In this document: in pieces, positions 17,033 through 59,814 of the stretch | How positions within the stretch are numbered: the first letter of the stretch is position 1 | Layout of the letters: the number at the start of each line of letters is the position of its first letter | NCBI GenBank assembly: GCA_903920145.1 | Contig: CAIXKV010000184.1 | Span: forward strand, 1-64,000 | Reading direction: 5' to 3' | Length of the DNA stretch: 64,000 nucleotides | Source: an uncultured Rhodospirillales bacterium | GTDB lineage: Bacteria > Pseudomonadota > Alphaproteobacteria > Azospirillales > Azospirillaceae | Made by a program: the position numbers and the translations under genes | The notes under the pieces: model-generated | The model's database searches: none | Seen by the model: only the letters and a program-made list of their open reading frames with translations | What the model was told of the DNA's origin: nothing

Positions 17033-17092
17033 CCGTTGATGCCGACACATCAAGGCTCGAGGGTATCATCGTCATGGCTCGCCGGTATCACA
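17033..17092 (+). repeat. Dispersed intergenic repeat, copy 2 (half element)
   Basis: The hairpin TTGATG-CCGACA-CATCAA is followed by GGCTCGAGGGTATCATCG and TCATGGCTCGCCGGTATCA. The order and spacing match copy 1, but the GTCTGAGGGC flank is missing. On the minus strand the block reads TGATACCGGCGAGCC, and its TGA is the stop codon of the mutase gene. Confidence 0.8.
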
Positions 17093-20000
17093 TATTACGC
17101 CGATAGCACCCTCCCACTTCGAACAACGCTTCAGTGATTTGCCCAAGAGAACACAATCTTACCGCGTCCATTAAGACACCAAACAAATTTTGGCCATTGA
17201 TCGCGGCCTCTTTCAGGCGAGCCAAAACAATCGGCGCAGAGTCGGCGTGACGACGCTGAAAATCGGCCAACCGCTGAAGTTGATTTTGCTTTTCTTCGTC
17301 CGAAGACCGTTGCAGCTTGGGCACCACTGCCGGCCCCGGTTCCGGGTTTAGGAAGGTATTGACGCCGATAATAGGCAACCGCCCATCATGTTTCAGAGTC
17401 TCGTAGAGTAAAGACTCATCTTGAATGCGGCCCCGCTGATACCCCGTTTCCATGGCTCCTAGGACACCGCCGCGCTCGGAAAGGCGTTCGAACTCCGCCA
17501 GAACGGCCTCTTCAACCAAATCCGTTAATTCCTCGATGATGAAAGAACCCTGGTTAGGGTTTTCATTCATAGCCACGCCCCATTCGCGGTTGATGACCAT
17601 TTGAATGGCTAGGGCTCGACGCACACTTTCGGCAGTTGGGGTTGTAAAGGCCTCGTCATGGGCGTTGGTGTGCAAGCTGTTGCAGTTATCGTAAACCGCA
17701 ATCAGGGCTTGCAGCGTGGTCCGAATATCATTGAAGTCCATTTCTTGAGCGTGAAGTGAACGCCCAGACGTCTGGATGTGATATTTAAGCTTCTGGGAAC
17801 GCTCGTTGGCACCATAGCGAAAGCGTAACGCGGTAGACCAAATCCGGCGAGCCACCCGGCCCATCACCGAGTATTCAGGCTCCATCCCGTTGGAAAAGAA
17901 GAAGGATAGATTCGGCGCAAAATCATCGATCTTCATCCCACGCGCAAGATAGGCTTCAACATAGGTAAAGCCGTTAGCAAGGGTGAAAGCCAATTGCGAG
18001 ATCGGGTTGGCGCCCGCTTCGGCAATATGGTAGCCCGAAATTGATACCGAATAGAAATTTCGGACATTATGCTGAACAAACCACTCCTGAATATCAGCCA
18101 TCATTCTGAGGGCAAATTCAGTTGAGAAAATACAGGTATTTTGCCCTTGATCTTCTTTTAAGATATCAGCCTGAACAGTTCCCCGAACATTTTCCAGAAC
18201 CCAGGCTCGAACCTTGACGGCCTCTTCAGGGGTTGGTAACCGCCCACTCTCTTTCTCAAAGCGGTCAAGCTGACGATCGATAGCAGTGTTCAGGAACATG
18301 GCAAGGATTGACGGAGCGGGCCCATTGATGGTCATCGACACCGATGTCATCGGATCGCACAGCTCAAAGCCATCGTACAACACCTTAAGATCATCCAGAG
18401 TCGCGATCGACACCCCGGAATTTCCGACTTTTCCATAGATATCGGGCCGCAAATCGGGATCAAATCCGTAAAGCGTGACCGAATCGAAGGCGGTTGAGAG
18501 CCGCTTTGACTTGGTATCCTTGGACAGATATTTGAAACGGTGATTGGTCCGAAAAGCGTCCCCCTCACCTGCGAACATCCGGGTCGGGTCTTCATTCTCG
18601 CGTTTAAAAGCAAACACGCCGGCAGTATAGGGAAATTCTCCCGGCAGATTCTCCAACAACAACCACCGTAAAATCTCGCCCTCATCCTCGAATCTCGGCA
18701 AGACGACCTTAGGAATGCGCGTTCCCGAGATCGACTGACGGGTCAGATGAGTCCTGATCTCACGATCTCGAACCCGCACGACATGCTGATCTCCAGAATA
18801 ATTCTCTCGCATTTTAGGCCAATTAGCCAACAGCTCTCGACAGCGCGCTTCCAAGGCCGCATCGCGGGCTTCAGCCAACGTCTCGACATCTTCGGCAGGC
18901 CGTCCGGCGGCACGCAGCAACGCCGCCGCCGCCCGCAACTGGTGACGCTCCCGAGCGACACTCACCTGCTGCCGGACCTCGGCATGATACGTCCGCACCG
19001 TGCCCGCAATTTCCGCCAGATAACGCTGGCGCGATGGTGGCACAATGGCTTGACCAGGGTCCGAAGCCCGCACGGCAACCGGCACCAAGGTGGTTTGCGG
19101 CAGCCGAGTAAACCCTTTGGTGGCCAAGAGCCTCAGCACCTCCTGATAAACCGCTGTAACACCAGGATCACTGAAACGGGCAGCGATGGCGCCAAAAACC
19201 GGCATCTGATCGCTCAGAACATCAAAGGCTTCCCGATTGCGCTGAACCTGTTTGCGGACATCCCGCAAAGCATCGGACGCGCCTTTGCGATCAAATTTAT
19301 TGATCACGACCACCTGCGCGAAGTCGAGCATATCGATCTTCTCGAGTTGGCTGGCGGCGCCATATTCAGGAGTCATGACGTAAATTGGAATATCCACATA
19401 CGGGACAATGCCGGTATCGCCTTGGCCAATGCCCGGTGTTTCCACCACCACCAGATCAAAGCCCGCTATCTTACAAGCGGCGATGATATCCGTGATGGTC
19501 GCCGGCACTTCGTTTCCGGCATGGCGAGTGGCGAGCGAGCGCATGAACACATTGGGCGCGCCAATGGCATTCATACGAATGCGATCTCCCAGCAAGGCGC
19601 CGCCGGTACGCCGCCGGGTTGGGTCGACCGCGATCACGGCGATTCTTGGCTCTCCGCTATAGAGCCGGAAACGCCGGATCAACTCATCGGTCAGCGACGA
19701 TTTGCCGGCACCGCCGGTTCCGGTGACACCCAAGACCGGCACGCCACAAGCCGCCGCCGATGCTCGCAGGGCCTGACGCTGGTCTTCGGGCAACAACCCG
19801 GCCTCGATCATCGAAATCAATCGCGCCAAAAAGACTCCGCCCGAGGCCATCAAGCCCTGGGGATCACGGAAATCCGGCATCGTTCCTGCGGTTAGGTCGC
19901 CATCGGCTTGACGCAGCATATCCGCGATGATTCCCTGCAACCCCAAGCGTAGCCCGTCTTCTGGAGAATAGAGCCGGGTTACGCCGTAGCCATGCAGCTC

Positions 20001-20360
20001 GGCCAATTCGTCGGGCACAATCACGCCACCGCCGCCGCCAAAAATTTTTAGGTCTGGTCGTCCCCGCTCGCGCAAGAGGTCAACCATATATTTAAAGTAT
20101 TCAACATGCCCTCCCTGGTAGGAACTGACCGCTATGGCATGAGCATCTTCTTGAATGGCGGCCGTCACCACTTCATCGACTGAGCGATTATGCCCCAAAT
20201 GAATGACTTCGGCCCCACCGGCCTGAAGCATGCGCCGAAACAGGTTGATCGCGGCGTCGTGGCCATCGAACAAGCTGGTCGCGGTTACAAACCGCAGAAT
20301 GTTTCGGGGAGGGGTCTGGTCGCGAGTCGGCAAGGACTCCAAAGCGATATCGTCGGGCAC
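17088..20360 (-). CDS. icmF: Fused B12-dependent acyl-CoA mutase (isobutyryl-CoA mutase type, IcmF)
   Basis: The 1090-residue fusion has three parts in IcmF order. The N-terminal cobalamin-binding domain carries D-G-H-D at 32-35 with the lower-ligand His34. A MeaB-like G-protein chaperone domain has its P-loop GTGGAGKS at 214-221. The C-terminal substrate-binding TIM-barrel half runs from about 540 to 1090. IcmF enzymes interconvert isobutyryl-CoA and n-butyryl-CoA with adenosylcobalamin, and some also accept isovaleryl- or pivalyl-CoA. GTPase activity protects or loads the cofactor. Methylmalonyl-CoA mutase is less likely because that enzyme is not fused this way. Its TGA stop lies in repeat copy 2. 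No other acyl-CoA genes flank it. Confidence 0.95.
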   Translation of the reverse strand: MPDDIALESLPTRDQTPPRNILRFVTATSLFDGHDAAINLFRRMLQAGGAEVIHLGHNRSVDEVVTAAIQEDAHAIAVSSYQGGHVEYFKYMVDLLRERGRPDLKIFGGGGGVIVPDELAELHGYGVTRLYSPEDGLRLGLQGIIADMLRQADGDLTAGTMPDFRDPQGLMASGGVFLARLISMIEAGLLPEDQRQALRASAAACGVPVLGVTGTGGAGKSSLTDELIRRFRLYSGEPRIAVIAVDPTRRRTGGALLGDRIRMNAIGAPNVFMRSLATRHAGNEVPATITDIIAACKIAGFDLVVVETPGIGQGDTGIVPYVDIPIYVMTPEYGAASQLEKIDMLDFAQVVVINKFDRKGASDALRDVRKQVQRNREAFDVLSDQMPVFGAIAARFSDPGVTAVYQEVLRLLATKGFTRLPQTTLVPVAVRASDPGQAIVPPSRQRYLAEIAGTVRTYHAEVRQQVSVARERHQLRAAAALLRAAGRPAEDVETLAEARDAALEARCRELLANWPKMRENYSGDQHVVRVRDREIRTHLTRQSISGTRIPKVVLPRFEDEGEILRWLLLENLPGEFPYTAGVFAFKRENEDPTRMFAGEGDAFRTNHRFKYLSKDTKSKRLSTAFDSVTLYGFDPDLRPDIYGKVGNSGVSIATLDDLKVLYDGFELCDPMTSVSMTINGPAPSILAMFLNTAIDRQLDRFEKESGRLPTPEEAVKVRAWVLENVRGTVQADILKEDQGQNTCIFSTEFALRMMADIQEWFVQHNVRNFYSVSISGYHIAEAGANPISQLAFTLANGFTYVEAYLARGMKIDDFAPNLSFFFSNGMEPEYSVMGRVARRIWSTALRFRYGANERSQKLKYHIQTSGRSLHAQEMDFNDIRTTLQALIAVYDNCNSLHTNAHDEAFTTPTAESVRRALAIQMVINREWGVAMNENPNQGSFIIEELTDLVEEAVLAEFERLSERGGVLGAMETGYQRGRIQDESLLYETLKHDGRLPIIGVNTFLNPEPGPAVVPKLQRSSDEEKQNQLQRLADFQRRHADSAPIVLARLKEAAINGQNLFGVLMDAVRLCSLGQITEALFEVGGCYRRNM

Positions 20361-20754: not shown

Positions 20755-22788
20755 TCAAGCCTGCCTAACTGCCGCAAGAAATGACCGCACATCCACCTGA
20801 AGGCGGTCTGATTGTCCCGCTACATCGCTTGCTACGGATCGAACCTGAGTCGCAGCCGCCCCTGTGGCCGCAGCAGCACGGGTCACATCACCAATGTTGG
20901 TCGTGACTTCATGGGTTCCATTGGCAGCCTGCATCACATTGCGAGAAATTTCCTGCGTGGCCGCCCCTTGCTCTTCGACGGCCGCAGCGATGGCCGTCGA
21001 AATTTGATTGATTTCGATGATGACTTTACTGACGCCCTCAATGGCAAGCACGGCTTCCCGTGTAGACTCCTGGATATTGTTGATCTGCTGCGTGATATCT
21101 TCGGTGGCACGGGCCGTCTGGTTGGCTAGAGCCTTGACCTCGCTTGCCACCACGGCAAACCCCTTGCCGGCATCCCCCGCCCGTGCAGCCTCGATGGTCG
21201 CGTTCAACGCCAACAGATTGGTTTGGCTGGCAATATCGCTGATCAAACGCACCACCTCGCCGATACGATGGGCACCGTCAGCCAAATGAGACACCACAGC
21301 CCCGGCTCGCTTGGCACTGTTGACCGCCTCACTTGCGACCGACGTCGACTGACCAACTTGGCGAGCGATTTCGTTAATAGAACTGGATAACTCTTCGGCA
21401 GCCGCCGCGACGGTTTCAACATTGGCGGATGCCTGTTCCGACGCCGAAGCCACCGCAAGGCTGCGGCCATTGGCTTGTTCCGCCGTCACCGATAAAGAAC
21501 CGGCGGCTTCCTGCATCTGGCGCGCGGCATCCGACAAACTATCCACTAGCTTTGTGACTTTACTGTCAAACTCGGCGGTCAAATGATCGATCCGCTGCCC
21601 TCGGACTAATTTAGTCTGCTGCTCGGCGGCCTGGACGGCAGCCGCTTGCCGAGCGGCCAGACCATTCTGTTTAAAGACTTCGACCGCGCCCGCCATCGAA
21701 CCGATCTCATCTCGATTCTCGCTAAAGGGGACTTCGACGTCAAGATCACCATCGGCCATGTGGCTCATGGTTCCCGTCAGCACAATCACCGGCCTTGAGA
21801 TCATCCGGCCAATCCCCCATAAGGCCACCATGATCAGGACTAAAGAGATCGCACCAACCACCATCATCATGGTCATCGTCGATTCAGCATGATCAGAAAC
21901 GTTACCAACGATAATTTCTTCTTCTTTAGCAATTTGATTAGCTAATGCATCGAGCTTATCACCAGCTTTGTCACGCAATTTCGGAGCTTGTTTAAAATAG
22001 ACATCCTGTGCTATGTGGGAAAATTTTACAACATCATCACCTGATTGATTGTATCTATCACTGAGTTGTTTAACATTATCTAAACTTTCTTTAAGCTTAT
22101 CACTCAGTCCACTAACTTTTAATTGGTTGACGAGAACATCGAATAGAGCGATCTGTTGATGAAACTCCTCGAACTGGCTGTCATTAAATACCGCCAAATA
22201 CCGCCAAATAGCAATCCGACGTTTAATAAGAGCTTCATCCACTTGCCGAACCAAAGCCACAACCTCCTGTTTTTCAGGAGCGGTTTCTGCAATTGTACGA
22301 TTAAGGAATGCATCCATGGCATTTGTTAACTCGGGCCCTTCCTTAAAAAATTGCTCCCGAACCATAAGCTTATTCAACGAGGCATCAATGACCACCTTCA
22401 AGAGAGCATCATATTCGCTCCACAATGCCCTAATCGCGTCCAATTCATCCCTTTGATCCGCCCGCAAATTACGAGCTTGCAGCTCCTGAAGCTTGTTATT
22501 AACAGTTGTATCAAAGACTCGAGTTTTTTCCGAAGCCTTTGTCGCGCTTTCCTTGGTCTGAGCAAAAATCACGTCGCGAATAGTCACACCAATATCTTTA
22601 CTCGCAATCTGGGCCGATCTTGCCACTTCAGCGGTAATGCGAGAGGAGTCAATGAGTTCCACGTTGGAGATTGTTCTGCTAAACCCGTCAATTGCCCACC
22701 ACGCCGTGATAGAAAATAGAAGAGTAACAACAACTCCAATCATTCCCAGTTTGTACGAAATTGGAGCATTTCTTAGCAATGAAATCAT
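20755..22788 (-). CDS. Methyl-accepting chemotaxis protein
   Basis: The 677-residue transmembrane chemoreceptor has membrane segments at about 14-32 and 305-325. They enclose a roughly 270-residue helical periplasmic sensor. A HAMP domain (about 326-380) and the methyl-accepting coiled coil follow, with the conserved tip [18 protein letters not shown]. The helical sensor could be a 4HB- or HBM-type domain; the ligand is unknown. It lacks a C-terminal CheR-tethering peptide, ending VRQA. It lies downstream of the soluble receptor-like gene on the same strand, 165 bases away, so it may have its own promoter. Confidence 0.95.
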
Positions 22789-22953: not shown

Positions 22954-24759
22954 CTAAAAGAGCATGTCTGAAATATCCGGTGTTTTTTCCCCTTCGGGAT
23001 GGACAAGCCCGCCAACTTGGGCTTGATCTGCCCCTGTCAAGAGGTCGACCAGACCGCGCCCACCAACCACAGCGCCATGAATAGAGCGCTCACTGGCCAT
23101 GGTATAGTGGGCCTCGGTAAAGGCTAAGACTTCTTGACGAGCCGCTTCCAAAGCGGCACCACTCAGATTGGGAGCGCTGTCGGTAGCCAAAGCTTTCAGC
23201 TCGGTAACACACCGATCTAAGGGCTCCCGACAGTGGGCGCCACCGGCGAACCCTTCTGCCACCACGCGCGTACTCTCGACCAACGCTCCCCCTCGGCTCT
23301 GAATCCGCCCCAACACCGTTGCAGCCTCGGCGCCAGTGCGACGCAACCGATCCACGGCTTGATCCAAAGCGCCTCTGAGGGCCACCACGTCCCTGGTCCC
23401 TTCGGCACCAATCGTGGTACGGGTGCTAATATCCCCCGCCGTTGCAACCACTCGTCCCAAATTAGCCGCCACGGCCTCCACCTGAGCGCGGGTGAGCGAG
23501 GCGTAGGCTTGCAATTGCTGGGCGATCACGTTCAAAGCCCGTCCCTTGACCCCCATATTGCCGCATTTAATTGAGGCATTGAGCCCCATCAGTCGCATGT
23601 CACCATTAACGCCGTTCAGTCCCCGCATCAGCTCCCCGGCCCGCCCTGCCGCTTCGGCCACCTGCCGAAGGCTCTGTTCGGCCTGTTCACGACTGCTCGC
23701 GAATTTGGCAAACAGCGCGCTTGCGGTTTCCAGGTCTTTTTCAATGTCAAGAAGGGTCAGACCGTCACCACCGAAGCTCTGCTCACAGGCCGCGCCGACC
23801 GCTGGCACGCCTGCCGCCATGGCTGCGAGATTCCGCCCCACGTCATTGACGGCGGTTCGATACCCCTCTTCTGCAAAGGATACCTGCCGCGCCTGAAGAT
23901 CGGCAATGCCATTGACAAAGACCGGACGCTGACCGGAACCCAGCCCAGACGCATCGGGAGCCTCAATCATCTCGGCAGCCACGATCAACGCCCGTTCCAC
24001 ATGCTCGAGTCTTTGACGGGTGATGTCGTAAATCTGCAAGTCTGAAACCAAATCGGCAATATGGGCAAACAGCGAACGCAACCGATCGGGAATATCTCGA
24101 ACCCCGAGCTTGGCCCGCCGCTGCCGCTCGCGCATCTCGGCCATGGCGACGGTCAGACGACCGGCCACGGCGTCCAACTCGCGCAACCCTTCGGCTTCAA
24201 CTGTGCTTTGCAGCGACAGGGCATGGGACGCCGCAAGCCTTAGCGCGCTCAACTCGGTACCGACTGCCGCAATTGTTCGCTCACCACTGAGAGCCAGACG
24301 AGCGATTTCCCGCGTAAACACCGAAAAGTCGACGCCGCTATCATTCAGTTGCGCCGATTCAATTTTGGCATTAATGGCCAGCACCCGAACATCGAACATC
24401 ACGCGAGTCAGGGCCGTCAAGGCCTTCAGCATGACATCGGTGGTGGCCACCATTTCCGCCAAGGATTCGGCCAACCCATCCCGGCGATGCCGCAAGCTGC
24501 CAACCTGATTGGCGGCCTCGGTCAGGCCGGACACCATGGCCTCGAACTCTGTCGACGCCAGCAGCGCGCCTGCGGTTTCGGCATCAGCGGAAAGGGCCGC
24601 AACTCGACCATGAAGATCGCGCAACCGATCGCCTGTGGCCAAAAAAACCTTTTCCAGAGGCGGAAAAAGAACGGCGAAACGCCCAGCAACCGTTCGCAGT
24701 TGCTGGGCCCAAGCCGACAGGGAGTCGCTACGGACAGGGCTCCAGGTATCGGCACTCAT
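22954..24759 (-). CDS. Soluble receptor-like chemotaxis protein with two degenerate hairpin tips
   Basis: The 601-residue, almost entirely helical protein has no membrane segment. Two stretches resemble the receptor tip: VLAINAKIESAQL...VFTREIARLA (about 127-156) and LMGLNASIKCGNMGVKGRAL (about 390-409). Both lack the normal A-A-R-A-G-E core, so canonical receptor signalling is doubtful. Between them is LQIYDITRQRLEHV, with D245 and Q249 spaced like the CheZ phosphatase pair D-x-T-G-Q. The last residues, PDISDMLF, resemble a CheY-docking peptide. The start at 24759 overlaps the cheD stop by 4 bases (ATGA), so the two are translationally coupled. I infer an adaptor or CheY-P phosphatase role in this pathway, but the family is not one I can name. 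Confidence 0.7.
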   Translation of the reverse strand: MSADTWSPVRSDSLSAWAQQLRTVAGRFAVLFPPLEKVFLATGDRLRDLHGRVAALSADAETAGALLASTEFEAMVSGLTEAANQVGSLRHRRDGLAESLAEMVATTDVMLKALTALTRVMFDVRVLAINAKIESAQLNDSGVDFSVFTREIARLALSGERTIAAVGTELSALRLAASHALSLQSTVEAEGLRELDAVAGRLTVAMAEMRERQRRAKLGVRDIPDRLRSLFAHIADLVSDLQIYDITRQRLEHVERALIVAAEMIEAPDASGLGSGQRPVFVNGIADLQARQVSFAEEGYRTAVNDVGRNLAAMAAGVPAVGAACEQSFGGDGLTLLDIEKDLETASALFAKFASSREQAEQSLRQVAEAAGRAGELMRGLNGVNGDMRLMGLNASIKCGNMGVKGRALNVIAQQLQAYASLTRAQVEAVAANLGRVVATAGDISTRTTIGAEGTRDVVALRGALDQAVDRLRRTGAEAATVLGRIQSRGGALVESTRVVAEGFAGGAHCREPLDRCVTELKALATDSAPNLSGAALEAARQEVLAFTEAHYTMASERSIHGAVVGGRGLVDLLTGADQAQVGGLVHPEGEKTPDISDMLF

Positions 24760-25400
24760 GACGGTTCCCCATTTCGCGTGACCGTCCCGCAGGTCGGGCA
24801 TGGTTCACTCCGGTTATTCCCGACGGATTCCCCAGAGGCCCCCCCCCGACTCACCCGCCGCCGCAACAACCGCCGCCGAGGTCCGGCGGCCGCAGCCACC
24901 GCAACCGCAGCGGCTCCTGTACTCACAATCGGTCGTACCCAAACATCGCCACACGCAGTACATTGCAACAGGACAATCCCTTGATCCCCGGCCAATCGTC
25001 CAGCCACAATGGGAATCCGCTGTCGACGCAGCTCCCGCACCGCCAGCCTCAAATTACGGCGTCCGATGGATACGCCTCCGGCTTCCGCCACCAAGACGCT
25101 AGCGCCACCAAAGACCTTGGCTTGCAGGTCTTCGATTTGGCTGCCCAGACTGACCATAGACTCCACCAGCGCCGGAATCGCCACATCACCAAACCGAACC
25201 GAAGGGGCCTCGGTACTTGGCCGAATCGGCAACAAAAAATGATTCATACCCCCAAAACGCAAACGTCGATCCCACAGGCAAACTGCAACACAAGAGCCTA
25301 AAATTGTACTAATCAGGTGCGGCTCACGCTCACAAAAGACTTGCCCCGGCAATAGCCTCAGAGTCGGTCGATCAGGAGGAGCAGGCGGAGCGTAAGACAT
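24756..25400 (-). CDS. cheD: CheD chemoreceptor deamidase with C-terminal Cys-rich extension
   Basis: The CheD core has the nucleophile in TILGSCVAVCLWD, the catalytic His in GGMNHFLLP and the Thr in TILGS. The AKVFGGA segment follows. CheD deamidates receptor glutamines and can interact with CheC-type phosphatases. Beyond the usual end there is CTACGDVWV, an Ala/Arg-rich stretch and CPTCG near the C-terminus. This CxxC...CxxC arrangement suggests a small zinc ribbon. The start at 25400 gives 214 residues. A GTG at 25463 would give 235, and neither has a strong ribosome binding site. The 254-base gap to the upstream receptor gene may hold a promoter. Confidence 0.9.
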   Translation of the reverse strand: MSYAPPAPPDRPTLRLLPGQVFCEREPHLISTILGSCVAVCLWDRRLRFGGMNHFLLPIRPSTEAPSVRFGDVAIPALVESMVSLGSQIEDLQAKVFGGASVLVAEAGGVSIGRRNLRLAVRELRRQRIPIVAGRLAGDQGIVLLQCTACGDVWVRPIVSTGAAAVAVAAAAGPRRRLLRRRVSRGGASGESVGNNRSEPCPTCGTVTRNGEPS

Positions 25401-25653
25401 CACGGAAATCTTTGGTGTGCTTTTGCGCTGGGAAGGACAAGGAAAAGGCGAGATTTTTCCCACCTTTCAAAATCCGAGGCGGGAAACGAGGCTAAGAAGA
25501 CCCAAGGGGTAAGCCAACCGACGCACTCCCAACCTAGCGGTCACTGTAAGGGAACGCCCACCCCTAGACAAGAGAGGTTGTCAACCACAGATCGCTATTC
25601 CGTGGACGTCTCCGCACCCCGTCCAAGACCGCATGCCTCCTTTTGGCTCGGCT

Positions 25654-27801
25654 TCAATAGCGTTCGAAAGCGGCGTCTTCGGAATCTTTATGCGAAGCAT
25701 GCTCATCAAGCTTGAGTTGAAAGCCCTTGCCCCCACTGCTCGCCCCGGCCAGCGGACGCCCGGCCGTCGCCCCCCGGTGGCCGGGCTCGGAACGACGGGG
25801 CGGCTCGGCGGGGATCCGACGAACGAGCCGTTCGGCCCGGTTTCCCGAACGTTCGGGCAATGATGGACGCTCAGGCGGTAAGGCCGTAGGCCGTTGATGG
25901 CCGTTGCCGTTATTTTTCCCTCCCACTCCAACCGCAGCCACGGAAAAGAACGAAATCGTAGCCTGGAGCCGTTGAGCCTGTGCCGCTAATTCCTCAGACG
26001 TTGACGACATCTCTTCGGCGCTGGCGGCATTTTGTTGGGTCACTTGATCGAGCTGTTGAATCGCAACATTAATTTGTTCGGCCCCAGCATTTTGCTCGCG
26101 CGAAGCCGACGTGATTTCCGCCACTAAACTTGCCGTATGTTGAATATCCGGAACCAATTTGGTTAGCATTTGCCCGGCCTGTTCCGAAACCCCCAAGGTT
26201 TGAATCGACAAAGCACCGATCTCAGCCGCTGCCAACTGGCTACGCTCGGCCAATTTGCGAACTTCCGACGCCACCACGGCAAAGCCGCGCCCGTGCTCCC
26301 CGGCCCGCGCCGCCTCAATGGCAGCATTCAGCGCCAGCAAGTCGGTTTGGCGGGCGATTTCCTGAACGATGGTAATCTTTTCGGCGATGGTCTTCATGGC
26401 CGCGACGGCTTTGGCCACAGCTTCGCCACTTTTGCTGGCATCGGCTGCCGATTGGCGAGCAGTCTTCTCGGTTTCAGTGGCGTTATCAGCGTTCTGGCGA
26501 ATGTTAGCTGCCATCTCCTCCATGGAACTGGACGCTTCTTCGGTGGAGGCCGCCTGTTCCGAAACCCCCTGGGACAAGCTATCGGCGCTGGCACTGAGTT
26601 GCTCACTTCCCGCTGCAACATTCTCAGCCGCAGAGCGCACATCGCCTACCACATCGCGCAACCTCTCAACCATCACATTGAGATGATCGATCAAATCGCC
26701 GATCTCTTCCCGTCCGCGATATTCGACTGTTGCGCCCAGATCTCCATCGGCCACGGCGCGAGCCAAACCGGCTGCCCGCCCTAATCCTCGGGCAATCGTC
26801 AAGGAAATCCAAAGGGCGACCCCAATTCCGATGACAATCGAGGCCAAGGCCATAATCATCAACGAGGTCCGCGAAGTGGTATAGGTCTGTCCAGACTCGT
26901 CCACAGCCTCTTGCAAGGATTGACGGTTGAGTTGAATGATGCTGTCTAACGATCCTTCAATTCGCTTGATCAACTCACTATCGCGCCCGGCTGACAAAAC
27001 TCTCGCTTTTTCATCGCCATTTTCGATGGCCAAATCCCGAACCTGTCGATCAAGCGCAACAAACCCGTCCCAACCTCCGGCAAATCGTTGAAATTCAGCC
27101 CGAGGCCCGACGGCGAGGTGATCCCGCACCGCTGCGATCGTTGTCTGGATTGCGCGAAGCTCGCTCTCAATATGTTGATTCTGATCTTTGAGTGCAGCAT
27201 CGTCTTCGACCAATAGAAAGGCCCGTTCTTCGCCCTGAATTCGCAATAGATTTTCCGGCAACTCCGTTAAAACCGTCAACGTTGCGGCATCTGTTCCCGA
27301 TGTTACCGTTCGAATTATATCTTTAAGGGCATTGAAAGCGACCACAAAGGCTTCATCAGCCTTACCAAGCGATAACGCGATTGCCTTAGCACTCGAATTC
27401 AAAGTTGCAAGCTGGACAACTTCATCTTCTGACTTAATCAGATCATCATGAAATTGGGCTATTTCTTCTAATTTTTTACGAATATCTCCTAAAGAAATGC
27501 CAAGCAGGCGTGTCATTTCGTCTTGAATATCGGCTCTTTTCTTCTTAAGGTCGTTCGCAAAATGAGCAATTTTTTGATCATCGGTTTCATTAACTAAATT
27601 CTTCTCGGATCTTGCGAGCAATGAAAAGTCATTCTCAAGCCGCAAAATTAACCGTTGGCTTAACACCGGCCCGCTCACGGCCACATCGAATCGTTGGTTA
27701 ACGACCCCCAGATTATCCACTGCGAGATAGGCCGAAACCGCCGCCAATATCAGCAGTGCTGCAAAAGAAGCCGCCAGCCGAGCCCTGATGGTAAAACGCA
27801 T
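25654..27801 (-). CDS. Methyl-accepting chemotaxis protein with C-terminal pentapeptide
   Basis: The 715-residue receptor has membrane segments at about 9-27 and 313-334 with a roughly 285-residue helical periplasmic sensor. A HAMP domain (about 335-388) and the signalling hairpin follow, with the tip [19 protein letters not shown] (E502 near the turn). A Pro/Arg-rich flexible tail (about 622-690) ends in AFERY, which fits the CheR/CheB-tethering pattern x-[HFYW]-x-x-[HFYW]. It is a close paralogue of the receptor at 28937-31261, with long nearly identical hairpin DNA but a shorter coiled coil. GGGAGAG upstream supports the start. The gene follows cheW by 48 bases. Confidence 0.96.
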
Positions 27802-27849: not shown

Positions 27850-28392
27850 TCAGCCGCCCTGGGTTAGATCGTCCAGAGTAAACACTCGGTTAAGGTTAAG
27901 CACAATGACGAACTGATCATGCCGGCGGCCAATCCCCCGAATAATCTCGGAACGCCAGCGCGTTCCAATCTCGGGTGGCGGCCCCATTTCGCCGGCATCC
28001 AGAGTCGTCACCTCGTGGACGCGATCGGTCAGGGCACCCAACACCAGCGGACGCCCCTCCACCACCACTTCCAACACCACGATTCGCGAACGGTCGGTGG
28101 GTTCGGCAGGCGGCATTCCAAACTTGATCCGCAGATCGATAACCGGGACTGCTTTTCCCCGGACATCAATCATACCGCGCACCCACGGCGGCATATTTGG
28201 AACCCGGCTAAACGGACACAGATCGAGCACTTCTCTGACCTGAGCAACGGTAATGGCAAAAGTTTCGTCGCCAACGCCACAGGTCAAATACTGAACGGCA
28301 TCATCCAAAAGGGCCGGACGGGCAACGGCATGACGTGGGCGGGATGAGGCAAGCTGGGACGTCACCAACGGAGACGTTACGGGCTGGGGCAT
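27850..28392 (-). CDS. cheW: CheW-type coupling protein (copy 1)
   Basis: The 180-residue CheW links receptors to CheA in the array. The CheW domain spans about 32-172, with the typical YLTCGVGDETFAI opening, the PWVRGMIDVRGKAVPVIDLR segment and the GIGRRHDQFVIVLN end. The N-terminal tail of about 30 residues is Pro/Ala-rich and unrelated to the other CheW in this cluster. AAGGA lies about 10 bases upstream of the start. It is 27 bases after the other cheW gene. Confidence 0.95.
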   Translation of the reverse strand: MPQPVTSPLVTSQLASSRPRHAVARPALLDDAVQYLTCGVGDETFAITVAQVREVLDLCPFSRVPNMPPWVRGMIDVRGKAVPVIDLRIKFGMPPAEPTDRSRIVVLEVVVEGRPLVLGALTDRVHEVTTLDAGEMGPPPEIGTRWRSEIIRGIGRRHDQFVIVLNLNRVFTLDDLTQGG

Positions 28393-28419: not shown

Positions 28420-28959
28420 TTACGATAAGGCCAACAGATCAGGACGGATCGGCGCATCCGCACGAATACCGGTCCAGGCTGACTCCTCGGATGCAAACAC
28501 TTGATCGATATTGGCAATAATGATGAAGTCATCACCACGTTTTCCGATCGCCTGGATAAAATCCGTGCGCCAACGCATACCAATCCGGGGCACCTCTTCC
28601 AAAGCCGCCGCCGCCACTTCGGTCACTTCATATACTTTGTCTGCCAGCGCCCCCACCATCGTCGGTTCATCATCGATCCGCACCTCCAGCACGACAATAC
28701 GGGTGTCGCGCGTGTGCGTAATAGAGGGCATTCCGAATTTAGTGCGAAGGTCAGTCACGGTAATGACCTTGCCTCGAACATTAATCAACCCCTTAATAAA
28801 AGGGCGACTGTTGGGAATACGGGTAATCGGCATCAAATCGAGCACTTCATGAACACGCTCGGTTGCGATGGCAAAAATCTCGTCCGCAAGCCCCAAGGTT
28901 AAAACCTGAAGGGAATCGCGACCTCCGGTGGCAGCCTCAATAGCGCTCGAAAGCGGCAT
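28420..28959 (-). CDS. cheW: CheW-type coupling protein (copy 2)
   Basis: The 179-residue CheW domain protein carries [21 protein letters not shown], the [12 protein letters not shown] segment and [16 protein letters not shown]-type end strands. The start at 28959 is chosen because AAGGA lies 8 bases upstream; Met codons at 28968 and 28992 are alternatives. With this start the gene overlaps the last 23 bases of the upstream receptor gene in another frame. The receptor's pentapeptide codons therefore double as the CheW N-terminus, and translational coupling is likely. Confidence 0.94.
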
Positions 28960-31261
28960 CGTCGGCATCCTTATGGTGGGCGGTGGTGGCATCTAATTTC
29001 AGGGCAAAGCCCTTAACCGGACCCAAGGCATGAGATACGCGGTGGGTGTCGGCAATCGCATCATATTTGCTCCCCCCCCCCGCCGGCTTGGCAGCGGCGT
29101 TAGAGGGTCGTCCCGTGGCTGGGCGAACCGGCGGTCGCTGCCGCCCGACCGGCTCTCCTCCCGGCCTCCGGTTTGGCCGTTCTGGCGGAGGCGGAGACGG
29201 AGGCGGAGGCGACGATGGCGTCTGGGCTGGCTGGCGCGGAGCCACTCCCCAGCCATTCTGGGAGACATCAGCTAGAGTGAAGAAGGCAATGGTCTCACGC
29301 AATTGCTGGGCCTGAGCCGACAATTGCTCGGATGTTGCCGACAATTGCGTTGAGATTTCGGATAACTGTGCCGATGTTGCGGATAACTCTTCGGTGGTTG
29401 AAGACATTTCTTCGGCACCGGCGGCATTCTGTTGCGTGACCTGATCAAGCTGCTGAATTGCGATATTAATTTGTTCGGCTCCAGCATTTTGCTCACGCGA
29501 GGCCGAGGTAATTTCAGCCACCAGTGTCGCTGTTCGCTGGATATCAGGAACCAATTTGGTCAGCATTTGCCCGGCCTGTTCCGAAACCCCTAGGGTTTGA
29601 GTCGACAGGGCGCCAATTTCAGCCGCTGCCAACTGGCTACGCTCGGCCAATTTGCGAACTTCCGACGCCACCACGGCAAAGCCGCGCCCGTGCTCCCCGG
29701 CCCGCGCCGCCTCAATGGCAGCATTCAGCGCCAGCAGGTCGGTTTGGCGAGCGATTTCCTGAACGATGGTAATCTTCTCGGCGATGGTTTTCATGGCCGC
29801 CACCGCTTTGGCCACAGCCTCACCGCTCTTGTCAGCATCAACCGCCGATTGACGAGCAATCTTTTCGGTTTCGGTGGCATTATCGGCGTTCTGGCGAATG
29901 TTAGCCGCCATCTGCTCCATGGAACTGGACGCTTCTTCGGTGGAAGCTGCCTGTTCCGAAACCCCTTGGGATAAACTGTCGGCACTTGCGCTTAACTGTT
30001 GACTGCCGGTTGCGACATTGCTGGCTCCAGACGAAACGCTTTCCGCACCCGAGGCCACACTTCCCGCCCCTGCCGCAACATTTTCAGCGCCAGTCACAAT
30101 ATCTTCAACCACTTGACGCAAACGATCGACCATTCCATTCAAATGATTGATGAGATCGCCAATTTCTTCCCGACCTCGATAATCCACGGTGGCGCTTAGA
30201 TTGCCTTCAGACACCGCTTGGGCCAAGCTGCTCGCTCGGTTCAATCCCCGAGAAATAGTCAGGGAAATCCATAACGCCACCCCAAAACCAACAATGATCG
30301 ACGCCAAGGCCATAATCAGCAAATTGATCCGAGAGGTCTCAAATGTATTACCGGCAGCAGCCACGGCCTCTTTCAAAAGGCCATGATTCATGTCGATGAT
30401 CGATTTGATCACGGCGTCGATCTTATCTTGAAGCTCTTGGTTCCGGCCCGATAATAAATCCGTGGCATGGGCCGTACCGTTTTCCACGCCATAGGCCACC
30501 GCTTTTTTATGAAGCGGCAAAAAAGCCTCCCAGGCGGTTTGGAATTGCTGGAATGACGCGCGCTGTGCTGGACTGACATGCTCGCCCAAGGCAACCAATT
30601 GATTCTGAATAGCCTGAAGCAAATGATCGTGATGCTGATTATACTCGGCAATAACTTTGTCATCTGTTAAAAGAATTAACAGAGATTCGTAATATTGAAT
30701 GCGCTGAATTTCGGCAGGAAGCTGTGCCAGAATAGCGGCCCCTTGGGGGTCGGCAGCGCCGCCGCCAGCGTCCCCAACTGCCGACAACCGCTGTATAACC
30801 AGATCAAAGGCATCTCCGGCCTTGCCAACCAAAAGCTCTGTTCCACGAGCTGTCGAATTTTGCATGGCGTAACGGATCAAATTGTCTTGTGATTTTATCA
30901 ATTCCGCATAAAGAGGCTCCATTTCATCCAATTTTTTACGTCCTAAGTCCGTTCCGACCTCGCGCAAATACGTTATTTGCCCCTGTATTTCGGCACGCTG
31001 CGCAATAATTTGATCTGTAATTCGTTTTATTTTATCATCCTCGGTTTGCAGCACCAACTGTTTTTCGAGGGCTGAAAGATTTAAGAAGTCTTTCCGCAAC
31101 TTTTCTTCAATTAAAGCTCGAGTAACCGGACCATCAACGGTTTTATTAAAGCTTTCATTTACAGCCCCAAGATTATTAACGCCAAGATATGCAGAAATGG
31201 CGCTAAGAAATAACACCAACCCGAATGCCGCCGCCAGCCTTGCTTTGATGGTAAAGCGCAT
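28937..31261 (-). CDS. Methyl-accepting chemotaxis protein with lengthened signalling coiled coil
   Basis: The 774-residue receptor is paralogous to the one at 25654-27801 and aligns with it residue for residue to about position 398. It has membrane segments at about 10-28 and 313-334, a helical periplasmic sensor and a HAMP domain. Relative to the paralogue it has two insertions of exactly 21 residues, 399-419 and 627-647, one on each arm of the hairpin. A Pro-rich tail ends in AFERY, a CheR/CheB-tethering-type pentapeptide. AAGGAG 8 bases upstream supports the start. It lies between cheA and cheW. Confidence 0.96.
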
Positions 31262-31323: not shown

Positions 31324-33462
31324 CTAGAATGCTCTAGCACTGGCCTCACGATCACGAGCAAATTTGATCAAATGGGGAATGTCTAAGATAAGCGCCACCG
31401 CCCCATCGCCGAGAATCGTTGCTCCCGAAAAACCTTCAAGATCGCGATGCATCCGTGACAGTGATTTGATCACGGTCTGATGTTGGCCGATGACCTGATC
31501 CACCACCAACCCGACGCGGGCTTCACCCATGGTGACAATCACTACTTTTTGAATCAACTCAGGCTCGCCGGGAACGTCAAACAATCGGCGCAGGCGAATA
31601 AAAGCAACAATCTCCCCGCGAATATTTAAGAAACTCCGACCGCCCGAGCGGATATCTTCTAAGCGAGTCAATTCAACGCACTCTTCAACCGCCGACAGCG
31701 GCACCACATAACGTTCATCACCAACCCGAACCAACAAGCCGTCAATGATGGCCAAGGTTAATGGCAGCTTCAGGGTGATGGCCGTGCCCTGCCCTAGGGT
31801 GCTGGCCACCTCGATGGAGCCGCGCAAACCATCGATGGTGCGCTTGACCACATCCATGCCAACCCCCCGACCAGAAACGCTGGTGACGGCGGCGGCGGTA
31901 GAAAAGCCGGCTTGAAAGATACAGCCAAACAGCTCGGCATCGCTCACATCCTGCCCCGCCTGAAGCAATCCACGCTCCTCGGCCTTGGCTCGGATTGCGG
32001 CCCGATCCAGCCCATGGCCATCGTCTTCGATGGTGATCAAGACCTGGGCCCCGGAATGAACGGCCGATAGATGAACCAGCCCATTTTCGGACTTCCCTGC
32101 GACGGCCCGCCGTTCCCGATCTTCGATACCGTGATCAATGGCATTACGAATCAAATGAACCAACGGATCATTCAGGGATTCGATGACCGTTTTGTCCAAC
32201 TCGGTCTCTTCGCCAGCGGTGGTCAACTCGACCGCTTTGCCCAACTCCCTGGATAGGTCATGCACCACCCGCCGGAATCGACCGAACAAGGTGCCGATCG
32301 GCAACATTCGGATGCTCATGGTGGTATCACGCAATTCCGAAGCCAATCGTTCGATGTCTTCGGAAATGGACTTCAAAAGCGGATTGGCTTCGGCAATGGC
32401 CACTTGCACCAAGCGGGCCTGAGCAATCACCAGTTCGCCGACCTGATCCATCAAGCTATCCAAACGCTCGGCGGGCACCCGAATGGTTCCGCCTGATACC
32501 GTGCTCTCCCGCGCCCGACTGACCTCTCGCAGATGCCGCTGTTCCCCAAGCGCCGAGGCCACCCGGTCTTCGGACACTTTTCCGGACTTGACCAGCAATG
32601 ACCCCAACCGCTCCTGCCGACCCAACCCTTCGTCGACATCTGCCGGAGCAACATCACCGCGCTCGACCAAAATTTCGCCGAGCTTCCGACCAACAGCCCC
32701 GTCGTCTTCGATGGGAATTTCATTGATGCTCAGGTCGGATTGGTCTGCAACGAACAAAAAAATCTCTTCAATGGCCGACTGAGCCGCCGTAGTGGTCAAC
32801 AGCACATCCCAAGCCAAATAGCAGCTAACGGCCTCCATCTCTTCCAAAGTCGGAACGCCATCGGTAATCGGCAGCACGGTGCAGGTTCCCAGCGCCCGCA
32901 ATTCATCCAGTAATGGCAAAGGATTACAGCCAATGGTCAGAACATTCTGACCAGGACGAAAGCGAATGCGAAACACATGCTCGTGCGGAGGCGACACCAC
33001 CTTCGGCGCCGCCGCAGATTTGGTCAGGGGGGACTTGGCCGGGGTCGACTTGAGGGCGGACGATGCATCCCGGTTCTGGTGGCCGCTACTGCCTACGAAA
33101 TCACGAATCGAGGCCAGCAGCGCCTCCCCCCGCAGCCGATCGGCGGTCTCTGGCCGTTCCAGTAGAACCCGAATATGGTCGGCGGCAGCCAGGGTCAGAG
33201 ACACCAACTCTCGGGTGACCTGAAGCTCGCCATTTCTCACTAAGGCAAACGTGCTTTCGATATGATGGGTAAAGGCAGCCAGAGCGTCCCACCCGAACAT
33301 GGCACCCGACCCTTTTAGGGTGTGCAACGCGCGGAAAGCCTGATCAACCAGCGAACGGTCATCTGGAGCCGCTTCCAGGTCGAGCAACGCCCCCTCAAGC
33401 TGGACCAACAGATCAACCGCTTCCTGCCTAAAAATATCCGCTGGATCGGTTCCGCCCATCAT
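31324..33462 (-). CDS. cheA: Chemotaxis histidine kinase CheA with MshEN-like linker
   Basis: The 712-residue kinase has an Hpt domain with phospho-His47 (ALHTLKGSG). Instead of a plain P2/linker, residues 260-308 contain two 24-residue units, KLGEILVERG...GRQ and RLGSLLVKSG...GEQ. These fit the MshEN c-di-GMP-binding pattern. The dimerisation helices come next, then the HATPase with N-box LVHLIRNAIDHG and G box SGRGVGMDVV. The CheW-like C-terminal domain completes it. The start at 33462 is chosen for GGGGAGAG just upstream; the frame extends to 33495. It autophosphorylates in receptor arrays and passes phosphate to CheY, encoded 59 bases upstream. Confidence 0.96.
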   Translation of the reverse strand: MMGGTDPADIFRQEAVDLLVQLEGALLDLEAAPDDRSLVDQAFRALHTLKGSGAMFGWDALAAFTHHIESTFALVRNGELQVTRELVSLTLAAADHIRVLLERPETADRLRGEALLASIRDFVGSSGHQNRDASSALKSTPAKSPLTKSAAAPKVVSPPHEHVFRIRFRPGQNVLTIGCNPLPLLDELRALGTCTVLPITDGVPTLEEMEAVSCYLAWDVLLTTTAAQSAIEEIFLFVADQSDLSINEIPIEDDGAVGRKLGEILVERGDVAPADVDEGLGRQERLGSLLVKSGKVSEDRVASALGEQRHLREVSRARESTVSGGTIRVPAERLDSLMDQVGELVIAQARLVQVAIAEANPLLKSISEDIERLASELRDTTMSIRMLPIGTLFGRFRRVVHDLSRELGKAVELTTAGEETELDKTVIESLNDPLVHLIRNAIDHGIEDRERRAVAGKSENGLVHLSAVHSGAQVLITIEDDGHGLDRAAIRAKAEERGLLQAGQDVSDAELFGCIFQAGFSTAAAVTSVSGRGVGMDVVKRTIDGLRGSIEVASTLGQGTAITLKLPLTLAIIDGLLVRVGDERYVVPLSAVEECVELTRLEDIRSGGRSFLNIRGEIVAFIRLRRLFDVPGEPELIQKVVIVTMGEARVGLVVDQVIGQHQTVIKSLSRMHRDLEGFSGATILGDGAVALILDIPHLIKFARDREASARAF

Positions 33463-33521
33463 CGCGCTCTCCCCCCTTGCCACTTGGGTCTCCACCGCGC
33501 GCGACTTCAGAGGAGCTGTCT

Positions 33522-33894: not shown

Positions 33895-34269
33895 TCAACC
33901 CTCTCCGCGCCAGAACCGATCATGAGAGACGATGGCTTTGCCGCTCCCCCCCTCGACGAACCCCGCAGTGACCAGCGCCGCGCGCAAGGCCCCTTCGGGT
34001 GACCGCGCCAGCCGGACGGCTTTTCCGGCCCGTTCGGCGCTATGCCGCAAAGCAATCAATAGCTGAAGGCCCGCCGCGTCCACAACGTCTAGGCCCGAGC
34101 AGTCAAGCTCGATCGGATCGGTTCCGGCCAAGACCGACAAGAACTCGGCCCGTCGCTCTTCGGCCTCCCGCAACGTCAACCGCCCCGTCAGAGCCAAACG
34201 CCGCCACCCCGTCGAAGCTCCCGCCGCCACTTGACCGACGCGCGTGTCGCCGCTGTCATTCTGTCCCAT
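33895..34269 (-). CDS. STAS-domain protein (anti-sigma-antagonist fold)
   Basis: The 124-residue product has one STAS domain (about 20-110): LALTGRLTLREA, then ELDCSGLDVVDAAGLQLLIAL. In SpoIIAA-type antagonists a Ser or Thr in D-[ST]-[AS]-G is phosphorylated; here the segment is D-A-A-G, so that site is absent. It leads the cheY-cheA transcript, suggesting a structural or partner-binding role in the chemosensory system. The start at 34269 (MGQND) has GGTGA upstream. A GTG at 34278 is possible. Confidence 0.85.
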   Translation of the reverse strand: MGQNDSGDTRVGQVAAGASTGWRRLALTGRLTLREAEERRAEFLSVLAGTDPIELDCSGLDVVDAAGLQLLIALRHSAERAGKAVRLARSPEGALRAALVTAGFVEGGSGKAIVSHDRFWRGEG

Positions 34270-34645
34270 AGCGATCACCCATCGTTCGACCCCATGGCGC
34301 CATTACCCTTGAAGAGCGCCGCACAATCGAACGCCAGCTATACCTGCCCAAACAATCCAGGCAAGCTGTCATGGAGCGCCCAATTCGTCAATCACATTCT
34401 TTTGAATTCGTTACTAATGCTACCTATCCATCGCTTCAGCCGAAATATGAGCTTGCAGATGAATTTTTATGAAAAATAAACTCTAACCATTACAGCGTAT
34501 CTCTGTTTCATCTTCAACCTTACCAATATCAAATCAAGCTTCTATCCGAACGAACGAACGCAGACTCAGGCCAACGACCGATGACCCGGCCCGCCACGCC
34601 TCGAAACTGACCACAAGAGTGTTTTAAAAGCCCGGCGTGTTTATT
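34270..34645. other. Intergenic region upstream of STAS-cheY-cheA
   Basis: This stretch of about 375 bases probably holds the promoter of the chemotaxis operon. I see no gene, no strong hairpin and no promoter pair I would defend. A short CGAA tandem (CGAACGAACGAACG, about 34549-34562) is the only local irregularity. Confidence 0.4.
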
Positions 34646-55630: not shown

Positions 55631-56695
55631 ATGGCTGCGGGGAGCGAAGACGATCGGCTGGCGGCGGAATGGGCGGCCTTGGCCGAAGAGAGCACGGGGG
55701 GGGAGTCCGCCGCTGGCGCTACGGGCTCGACTCGGGTTCTTAATCAAGACGAAATCGACAGCCTGCTTGGATTCGATCAGGAAGCCGGAGGGGATGGTGA
55801 AAACTCCGGCATTATGGCCTTGGTCAACAGTGCGCTCGTTAATTACGAGCGGCTGCCGATGCTTGAGGTCGTGTTTGATCGTTTGGTTCGTATGATGTCG
55901 ACTTCTTTGCGTAATTTTACCTCTGATAACGTTGAAGTGAGTTTGGACCAGATTTCCAGCGTGCGTTTCGGTGATTATCTCAACTCGATCCCGCTACCGG
56001 CCATGCTGTCGGTTTTCAAGGCCGAGGAATGGGATAACTTTGGTTTGCTGGTGGTCGACAGCGCACTAATTTACTCAATCGTCGACGTTCTGCTGGGGGG
56101 ACGGCGTGGGACTGCCGCCATGCGGATTGAAGGCCGGCCCTACACCACCATCGAGCGGAATTTGGTCGAGCGCATGGTGCATGTTGTGTTGAGCGATCTA
56201 TCGGCTTCCTTTGATCCATTGTCGCCGGTGACCTTCCGGTTTGATCGGCTGGAAACCAATCCGCGTTTTGCCACCATTGCTCGCCCGGCTAACGCTGCGG
56301 TGTTGGTCAAGCTGCGGGTCGATATGGAAGATCGCGGCGGTCGCCTGGAACTGATGATCCCCTATGCTACCCTGGAGCCGGTACGCGAACTGTTGCTTCA
56401 GATGTTCATGGGTGAAAAATTTGGCCGGGATTCCATTTGGGAAACCCATTTGGCTTCGGAATTGATGGTGACCGATGTCGATCTTCTCGCCGTGCTGGAC
56501 GAGATGACGCTGTCGCTTCACGAGGTGCTGGATTGGAAAGTCGGAAGCCGCATTCTATTGAATGCCAGCGCCGACGGAGTCATCGAGCTGCGGTGCGGTG
56601 AAGTGCCAATGTTCCAGGGCCGAATGGGGCGTAAGGGCGGTAACATCGCCGTTCGCATCGACAAAGAGCTGCCGAAACAGGAGATATCCCACTGA
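55631..56695 (+). CDS. fliM: Flagellar motor switch protein FliM
   Basis: The 354-residue switch protein has its CheY-binding peptide at LNQDEIDSLLGF (37-48), after an N-terminal extension of about 36 acidic residues. The CheC-like middle domain has GDYLNSIPLPAML. The C-terminal SpoA (FliN-like) domain is near 290-345. It forms the C-ring with FliG and FliN; those genes are not in the window. It shares the last base of its stop with the next start (TGATG). Confidence 0.97.
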   Translation: MAAGSEDDRLAAEWAALAEESTGGESAAGATGSTRVLNQDEIDSLLGFDQEAGGDGENSGIMALVNSALVNYERLPMLEVVFDRLVRMMSTSLRNFTSDNVEVSLDQISSVRFGDYLNSIPLPAMLSVFKAEEWDNFGLLVVDSALIYSIVDVLLGGRRGTAAMRIEGRPYTTIERNLVERMVHVVLSDLSASFDPLSPVTFRFDRLETNPRFATIARPANAAVLVKLRVDMEDRGGRLELMIPYATLEPVRELLLQMFMGEKFGRDSIWETHLASELMVTDVDLLAVLDEMTLSLHEVLDWKVGSRILLNASADGVIELRCGEVPMFQGRMGRKGGNIAVRIDKELPKQEISH

Positions 56696-59115: not shown

Positions 59116-59814
59116 ATGTCGAACCTTGCGATCAACCCGAGCGCCGACAAGTCGTTTCGTCTGCGTCTCGATCAGGCCCGAGTCGAGGCGCTGACGCCGT
59201 TAAGTCTCGACGATGTGAGCGGGATCGTTCACCAGATTCTGGCGAGCCTGGGCGGCGATGTCTCAGCCAGCGACATCAAACTTTATAAAGAGCTGGAAGG
59301 GCTGGCGCGCTACATCCAGCACGCTAAGGCGGAAATTGCCGCCATCCGGCCCAATGAGATTCGGGAAAACCATATTCCCTCAGCCACCGACGAATTGGAT
59401 GCGGTGGTCGGCGCCACCGAAGCCGCCACCAACACCATCATGGACGCGTGCGATGTGATTGGTGCGCTGGCTTCGGCGTTGGAGCCGGACAAAGGGGCGG
59501 TGTTGATTGATGCTGTGACTCGCGTGTTCGAAGCCTGCAACTTTCAGGACGTGACCGGCCAACGCATCACCAAGGTCGTGCGGACCTTGAAGACCATCGA
59601 GGCTCGAGTGGATGCCCTGATCGTGGCATTTGGCGAGCAGACGGCAGGGTTCGAGGCGGTGGCGACGCGGGCGAGCGCCGTAACTGCTCCGGTGGCGATG
59701 GTCGAAGCCACCACGGCCTTTGACCCTGATGTTGCTTTGCTTCACGGGCCGTCGCTGCCAGGCGCGGCGATCGATCAGGACGAGATTGATCGGTTGTTGG
59801 CGTCCTTCGATTAG
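59116..59814 (+). CDS. cheZ: CheZ-type CheY-phosphate phosphatase
   Basis: The 232-residue helical protein has the CheZ active-site motif FQDVTGQ, with D145 and Q149. In E. coli CheZ, Asp143 and Gln147 of D-x-T-G-Q attack CheY-P. The C-terminus IDQDEIDRLLASFD matches the FliM CheY-docking peptide encoded 3 kb upstream. This is as expected for a protein that competes for the same CheY surface. AGGAG upstream of the start is good. The 150-base gap to the motE-like gene may hold a promoter. Confidence 0.93.
   Translation: MSNLAINPSADKSFRLRLDQARVEALTPLSLDDVSGIVHQILASLGGDVSASDIKLYKELEGLARYIQHAKAEIAAIRPNEIRENHIPSATDELDAVVGATEAATNTIMDACDVIGALASALEPDKGAVLIDAVTRVFEACNFQDVTGQRITKVVRTLKTIEARVDALIVAFGEQTAGFEAVATRASAVTAPVAMVEATTAFDPDVALLHGPSLPGAAIDQDEIDRLLASFD

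Follow-up and report, generated by a model that had tools for sequence, protein, structure and literature searches.

Our analysis of a 64,000-nucleotide stretch of DNA (the window) suggests that P0001, a receptor-like protein with a CheZ-like motif, acts as the phosphatase for CheY-P in its own F7-like operon and uses a receptor scaffold in place of that of CheZ, a function that we consider moderately likely. P0001 is probably a soluble, duplicated derivative of the McpA-like receptors and would work like CheZ. This CheZ-like reading is partly supported. It gains strong indirect support from an invariant motif, the predicted exposed amphipathic face on which this motif lies, an in-register CheZ profile match, a conserved acidic LF tail and the position of the gene in an operon where no CheZ is found.

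Gene, operon and relatives

The gene of P0001 is located at 22954..24759 (-), as given by its open reading frame and translation (601 aa plus stop; N-terminus MSADTWSP). Its ATG at 24759 shares four bases (ATGA) with the TGA stop codon of cheD (24756..25463 (-); PF03975, 2.7e-18). The operon is arranged in the order STAS-CheY-CheA-receptor-CheW-CheW-receptor-CheD-P0001-receptor. Its first gene encodes a CheS-like STAS protein (33895..34278 (-); PF13466, 8.8e-16), followed by the CheY that we propose as the substrate of P0001 (33522..33887 (-); PF00072, 1.7e-26, and translation) and by CheA (31324..33495 (-)) with Hpt, H-kinase_dim, HATPase and CheW domains. Two membrane receptors with 4HB, HAMP and MCPsignal domains (28937..31261 (-) and 25654..27801 (-)) enclose two CheW proteins (28420..28992 (-) and 27850..28392 (-); both PF01584), and another membrane receptor (20755..22788 (-); HAMP, MCPsignal) lies 3' of P0001. 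The chemotaxis operon is adjoined by an IcmF-like fusion of a B12-binding domain, a MeaB GTPase and methylmalonyl-CoA mutase (1090 aa, 17088-20360 (-)). A true CheZ, used for comparison only, is encoded about 35 kb away on the opposite strand (59116..59814 (+); PF04344, 1.2e-14), and FliM is found elsewhere in the window (55631-56695). Four PF04344 matches are present in the whole genome. The genome also encodes a CheZ-like protein (locus L029, 919-2337 (-)) with about seven repeats of the (Q)S-D-I-D-A-L-F type in its C-terminal half, each of which resembles a CheY-docking peptide.

Homologues of P0001 occur in each of the four further genomes of the genus and also outside it, and the order STAS-CheY-CheA-CheW-receptor-CheW-CheR-CheB-(CheD)-P0001 homologue is conserved. 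Synteny is observed at 16 loci in other genomes, and none of these 16 contains a CheZ match. At most of the loci inspected in other genera, the homologue is the last gene in, or directly adjoins, STAS-CheY-CheA-CheW-receptor-CheW-CheR-CheB. By this gene order, which is that of stage 1 in PMC7184735, the P0001 gene lies in an F7-type cluster. At stages 1 and 2, F7 clusters are reported to have cheY but not cheZ (PMC7184735). In the window operon and at locus L025, cheR and cheB are missing between CheW and CheD, and L026 has cheR only; both genes are present at L120 and L121, which belong to the window's genus. The coupling to cheD, mentioned in the preliminary description, is real in the window, where the two genes overlap by four bases, and cheD is 5' of the gene in four of the five species of the genus. 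However, it is local to this genus. Inspection of the taxonomic spread shows that most homologues are not adjacent to cheD, and the gene elsewhere mostly follows cheB.

A transmembrane receptor form carrying the motif is encoded directly after cheB-cheD in a beta clade and directly before cheY-cheA in three alpha genomes; these stretches likewise gave no CheZ match. Some plasmid relatives (Agrobacterium, Shinella, Methylosinus) are likewise found within che clusters. The Shinella relative (locus L071, 4347-6071) is annotated as 'type VII secretion target' and is almost certainly a misannotated coiled-coil protein.

Degenerate tips, duplication and predicted structure

Searches of Pfam and NCBIfam with P0001 return no informative family, and a sequence search of the PDB gives weak receptor matches only. 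Its match to Pfam MCPsignal (PF00015) reaches 21.9 bits, under the cut-off of 34.6, while 24 of 29 relatives match this domain at E 0.1 or better. No transmembrane segment is present in P0001, since its top 19-residue hydropathy is 1.29 versus 1.8 to 2.6 in the transmembrane receptors checked.

The two receptor-tip-like segments described initially are both present, and the canonical A-A-R-A-G-E core is found in neither sequence. Tip 1 comprises about residues 120-160 (24280..24402 (-)) and contains VLAINAKIESAQLNDSGVDF (about residues 126-145). It aligns without gaps to the McpA-like tip and falls in a predicted helix-turn-helix (96-141/146-240). Tip 2 comprises about residues 385-420 (23500..23607 (-)) and includes DMRLMGLNASIKCGNMGVKGRAL (387-409); it is identified by the match of the second half to McpA-like receptors and by the predicted helices 334-401/403-507. 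This second tip is strongly conserved in altered form (D387, N394, K398, C399, G403 and G406). A near-invariant Lys-Cys (L-K-C-x-R-L-G, about 23560-23567) takes the place of the receptor E-A-A-R, and C399 is the top-scoring single column of the family alignment. The altered residues K398 and C399 suggest a specific partner instead of canonical CheA control.

The N-terminal half of P0001 aligns with its C-terminal half (E 2.4e-7); the score is 55.8, and none of 80 heptad-block permutations exceeds 38.5. P0001 is therefore an internal, tandem duplication of a unit consisting of a receptor hairpin and, 114 residues further along its returning helix, a Q-x-x-D-x-T-x-Q helix; copy 1 keeps the motif and copy 2 has lost it. 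The McpA-like receptor of F7 clusters is this unit with an intact tip and a transmembrane anchor. The AlphaFold2 model (mean pLDDT 80.8, pTM 0.56) places both hairpins, the motif helix 242-266 and a disordered region at 561-601. Foldseek searches with the full model and with residues 92-300 retrieve receptors, and CheZ is absent from the top 50. The fold is receptor-like but no more, both tips are without the canonical contact core, and an association with chemoreceptor arrays, as originally suggested, is not supported. Membership of P0001 in arrays is doubtful.

The DxxxQ motif

The CheZ-like motif LQIYDITRQRLEH (residues 241-253; 24001..24039 (-)) stands at the start of the predicted helix 242-266, a position that, by Tsr numbering, would be about that of methylation helix 2. 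The stretch LQIYDITRQ, pointed out earlier for its CheZ-like spacing of D and Q, corresponds to residues 241-249, and the numbering as D245 and Q249 is correct. A D-x-x-x-Q in one sequence proves little, because ordinary receptors carry it too; canonical receptors bear Q-M-D-E-x-T-Q in the corresponding helix. Chance is not excluded from a single sequence, and we therefore examined homologues obtained by a whole-protein search and not by a motif search. In 14 such homologues, whose identity to P0001 drops to about 25%, the invariant residues include Q242, D245, T247, Q249, R250, H253 and A257. Six of these columns (Q242, D245, T247, Q249, R250 and H253) are still invariant across an alignment of 29 sequences, 12 of which were chosen by the motif. 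Among 20 sequences, none of them motif-selected, no other 12-residue window of P0001 is as conserved as residues 242-253.

In a helical wheel, the angle to the hydrophobic face is 178 degrees for D245 and 142 degrees for Q249. Four residues apart, they would thus lie on an exposed helix face in the Q-D-x-T-x-Q context of CheZ. The proposed surface location holds in part: both residues belong to the same predicted helix and face off its hydrophobic side, but their exposure is deduced from sequence.

Relation to McpA-like receptors and CheZ

F7 clusters carry an Aer2-like receptor and a McpA-like receptor (CttP/PA0180; VCA1088) (PMC7184735, PMC7534058). The McpA-like receptor always accompanies ancestral F7 clusters, and its C-terminus is strikingly conserved with a role called unclear (PMC7184735). 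Over 192 columns, the N-terminal half of P0001 matches McpA-like receptors with E 3.6e-16, its tip and its motif each falling on their counterpart, and the C-terminal half matches them with E 9.1e-17. The match of the N-terminal half to canonical receptors is far weaker (E 2.9e-5).

The receptors with which the two halves align, a group reached via the loci L050 and L064, are transmembrane-anchored and show a canonical tip followed by LQF[QE]D...Q. Counted from the tip ALNA to the motif Q, the gamma and alpha receptors share a distance of 114 residues with P0001 and most of its homologues; one clade of P0001 homologues (110) and one beta receptor clade (116) deviate. Among 20 gammaproteobacterial cheD regions taken without use of the motif, 11 contain a cluster-adjoining receptor ending in [VI][DE]LF, and all 11 of these receptors have LQF[EQ]D...Q at the fixed distance. 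The pattern is absent from neighbouring gamma receptors ending in W-x-[EDT]-F. We identify the 11 receptors as McpA-like by position, tail and topology, and not by the sequences of PA0180 or VCA1088. The gamma receptors read LQFED and have no EH, and the pattern LQFQD.....EH matched one genome only. In an alignment of 20 McpA-like members, those beyond the 11 gamma ones having been chosen by the motif, only Q354, F355, D357, Q361 and the final L-F are invariant outside the tip.

The profile of the McpA-like receptors matches a CheZ profile built from an alphaproteobacterial set plus E. coli (E 2.3e-6, probability 89), with FQDIT.Q aligned on FQDITGQ. In the control setting, its score of 46.3 stands above all 120 column permutations (21.8 or less) and above the reversed profile (18.3), while canonical receptors, with 16.5, do not rise above permuted columns. 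For the P0001 family the match to CheZ has E 5e-4 to 5e-3 with the motif in register, and the score of 29.3 is slightly above the best permutation (25.9; reversed 22.3). On these profiles, the McpA-like group has a clear CheZ link, and that of the P0001 family by itself is suggestive; P0001 gains the link because it is homologous to the McpA-like group. Pfam CheZ (PF04344) matches none of 29 P0001 family members at E 0.1, and it matches three of 20 McpA-like proteins, all below the cut-off. By Pfam membership P0001 is not to be filed as CheZ. The comparison with CheZ and receptor tips that had been recommended turns out mixed: the profile match is in register and the fold is receptor-like, but Foldseek retrieves no CheZ.

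C-terminal segment and tail

A conserved YTMASER..H segment (residues 552-561; 23077..23106 (-)) precedes the tail, and its Y552, T553, E557 and R558 are invariant in 29 sequences. The sequence ends in TPDISDMLF, of which the acidic peptide PDISDMLF (22957..22980 (-)), behind a disordered linker (561-595), is our proposed CheY-docking tail on account of its likeness to the docking peptides of CheZ and FliM. In the AlphaFold2 model residues 561-601 have low pLDDT, with a short helix at 596-600. For comparison within the same genome, the CheZ of the window ends in DQDEIDRLLASFD and FliM begins with LNQDEIDSLLGF. When the tail pattern was run against the 191 frames of at least 100 aa in the window, P0001 alone matched. 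Relatives terminate in acidic LF or FF peptides, and the tails differ from genus to genus. The resemblance of DISDMLF to the acidic ends of FliM and CheZ, remarked on at first reading, thus seems to be borne out, the tail being similar to the same-genome docking peptides and conserved in its acidic LF kind.

Proposed function and alternatives

In the mechanism that we propose, P0001 would dimerise as receptors and CheZ do, and its acidic LF tail would capture CheY-P as the CheZ tail does. D143 and Q147 are the catalytic residues of E. coli CheZ; like them, D245 and Q249 would enter the active site of CheY and position the attacking water. The degenerate tips may keep the protein dimeric or bound to a partner, which could be CheD, CheW or a neighbouring receptor, and would not serve canonical CheA activation. 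As a counterpoint, the several true CheZ matches of the genome could serve the CheY of the operon.

P0001 might also bind CheY-P without dephosphorylating it, for docking or storage near the array or as a competitor of the motor. The acidic LF tail is kept in kind across the family, and in FliM the tail alone suffices for binding, but the most conserved stretch of P0001 is the D-x-T-x-Q helix and not the tail. Pure docking is disfavoured, because it gives no need for a D and a Q that are both exposed and invariant, and we regard this function as unlikely. It is similarly improbable that P0001 is a decoy or adaptor receptor, with tips that tune adaptation through contacts with CheD, CheW or receptors, as CheC/CheD of Bacillus do, and a motif that serves this contact. 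Translational coupling to CheD within the genus and the strong conservation of the second tip in its altered form speak for such an adaptor. CheC binds CheD and is itself a CheY-P phosphatase, so that adaptor and phosphatase roles may coexist. However, most homologues lie away from cheD, and tip decay does not explain the motif, because the motif is common to McpA-like receptors with ordinary tips.

A localisation platform for adaptation enzymes, in which the C-terminal peptide tethers CheR or CheB, is very unlikely. The P0001 gene usually follows cheR-cheB, and a CheR-type pentapeptide (EWEEF) closes the Aer2-type receptors of these clusters, but none of 49 family tails fits x-[HFYW]-x(2)-[HFYW], so that this reading of the tail was rejected, and P. 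aeruginosa McpA is reported to bind no CheR (PMC7184735). We give hardly any credence to the DxxxQ as a catalytically silent receptor inheritance from the Q-M-D-E-x-T-Q-Q-N segment. Canonical receptors do have a D-x-x-T-Q about 100 residues past the tip, and hhalign superposes the segments with a gap. Against this origin, the motif lies 114 and not 100 residues from the tip, T stands at D+2 as in CheZ whereas canonical receptors have it at D+3, and canonical receptors are without a CheZ match at that segment (16.5, noise). Its position and the control with the CheZ profile were the grounds for rejecting the motif as a mere receptor relic (QMDEVTQQN).

Its catalytic signature and tail make P0001, along with the McpA-like receptors, a good candidate for the off-switch that is missing from an old class of chemotaxis system. 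Such a role would link the cheZ-less F7 clusters to the McpA-like C-terminus, both protein groups having an acidic LF tail and a DxxxQ helix of the CheZ type. If true, this is a case of a receptor scaffold that became a response-regulator phosphatase, and one point mutant would suffice to test what McpA/CttP-type receptors do. The combination of receptor tips and CheZ motif, put forward as undescribed, is real, and no description of it was found in a literature search conducted mostly outside subscription journals; the literature searched mentions neither a phosphatase role nor a CheZ motif in McpA-like receptors. A wider scheme is rather doubtful: DxxxQ receptors would form a general class in which the F7 CheY phosphatase is a McpA-like receptor, with the motif close to its adaptation region, or the soluble duplicate P0001, signal termination takes place in or beside the array, and CheT, perhaps also CheZ, are stripped-down products of the receptor-hairpin stock.

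Comparison with known systems

In rhizobia, cheD is followed by CheT, a DXXXQ phosphatase with demonstrated activity on CheY1 (PMC12654446). Like P0001, the CheT of Sinorhizobium and Agrobacterium has a DXXXQ and a gene position after cheD; it differs by its size of about 115 aa and has no receptor hairpin. At locus L126 (992-1351 (-)), a 115-aa ORF after cheD contains QRIDHTTQ; its position, its size and the DxxxQ make it a probable CheT. Its tail DDDGDLELFG, with the shared G-D-L-E-L-F, resembles the McpA-like tail MDDGDIELF, and this tail is its sole alignment with McpA-like receptors. No CheT relatives were found on plasmids. CheT as a close homologue is not supported: there is no profile match beyond the tail, and P0001 has 601 aa versus about 115 aa. 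The CheC-CheD pair of Bacillus, in which a CheY-P phosphatase works with CheD, as is generally known (PMC3513319), differs from P0001 in fold and catalytic motif.

Receptors and CheZ are both four-helix bundles of two hairpins. CheZ (PF04344) shares with P0001 the Q-x-D-x-T-x-Q on a putatively exposed helix face, a disordered linker and a hydrophobic-acidic C-terminal peptide. As regards the dimeric four-helix bundle of CheZ, P0001 has predicted helical hairpins for which Foldseek ranks receptors. P0001 lies below Pfam membership and has a receptor scaffold from which CheZ is not retrieved. The McpA-like F7 receptors (CttP/PA0180 and VCA1088, the latter classed 24H) are homologous to P0001 over both halves and agree with it in the tip-motif distance, the cluster and the acidic LF-type end. 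Homology and cluster fit a McpA-like receptor, but the canonical tip and the transmembrane anchor are absent, with a hydropathy of 1.29 against 1.8 to 2.05, and P0001 does not qualify as one proper: the McpA-like receptors are single and transmembrane-anchored with a canonical tip, whereas P0001 is soluble and doubled with both tips degenerate.
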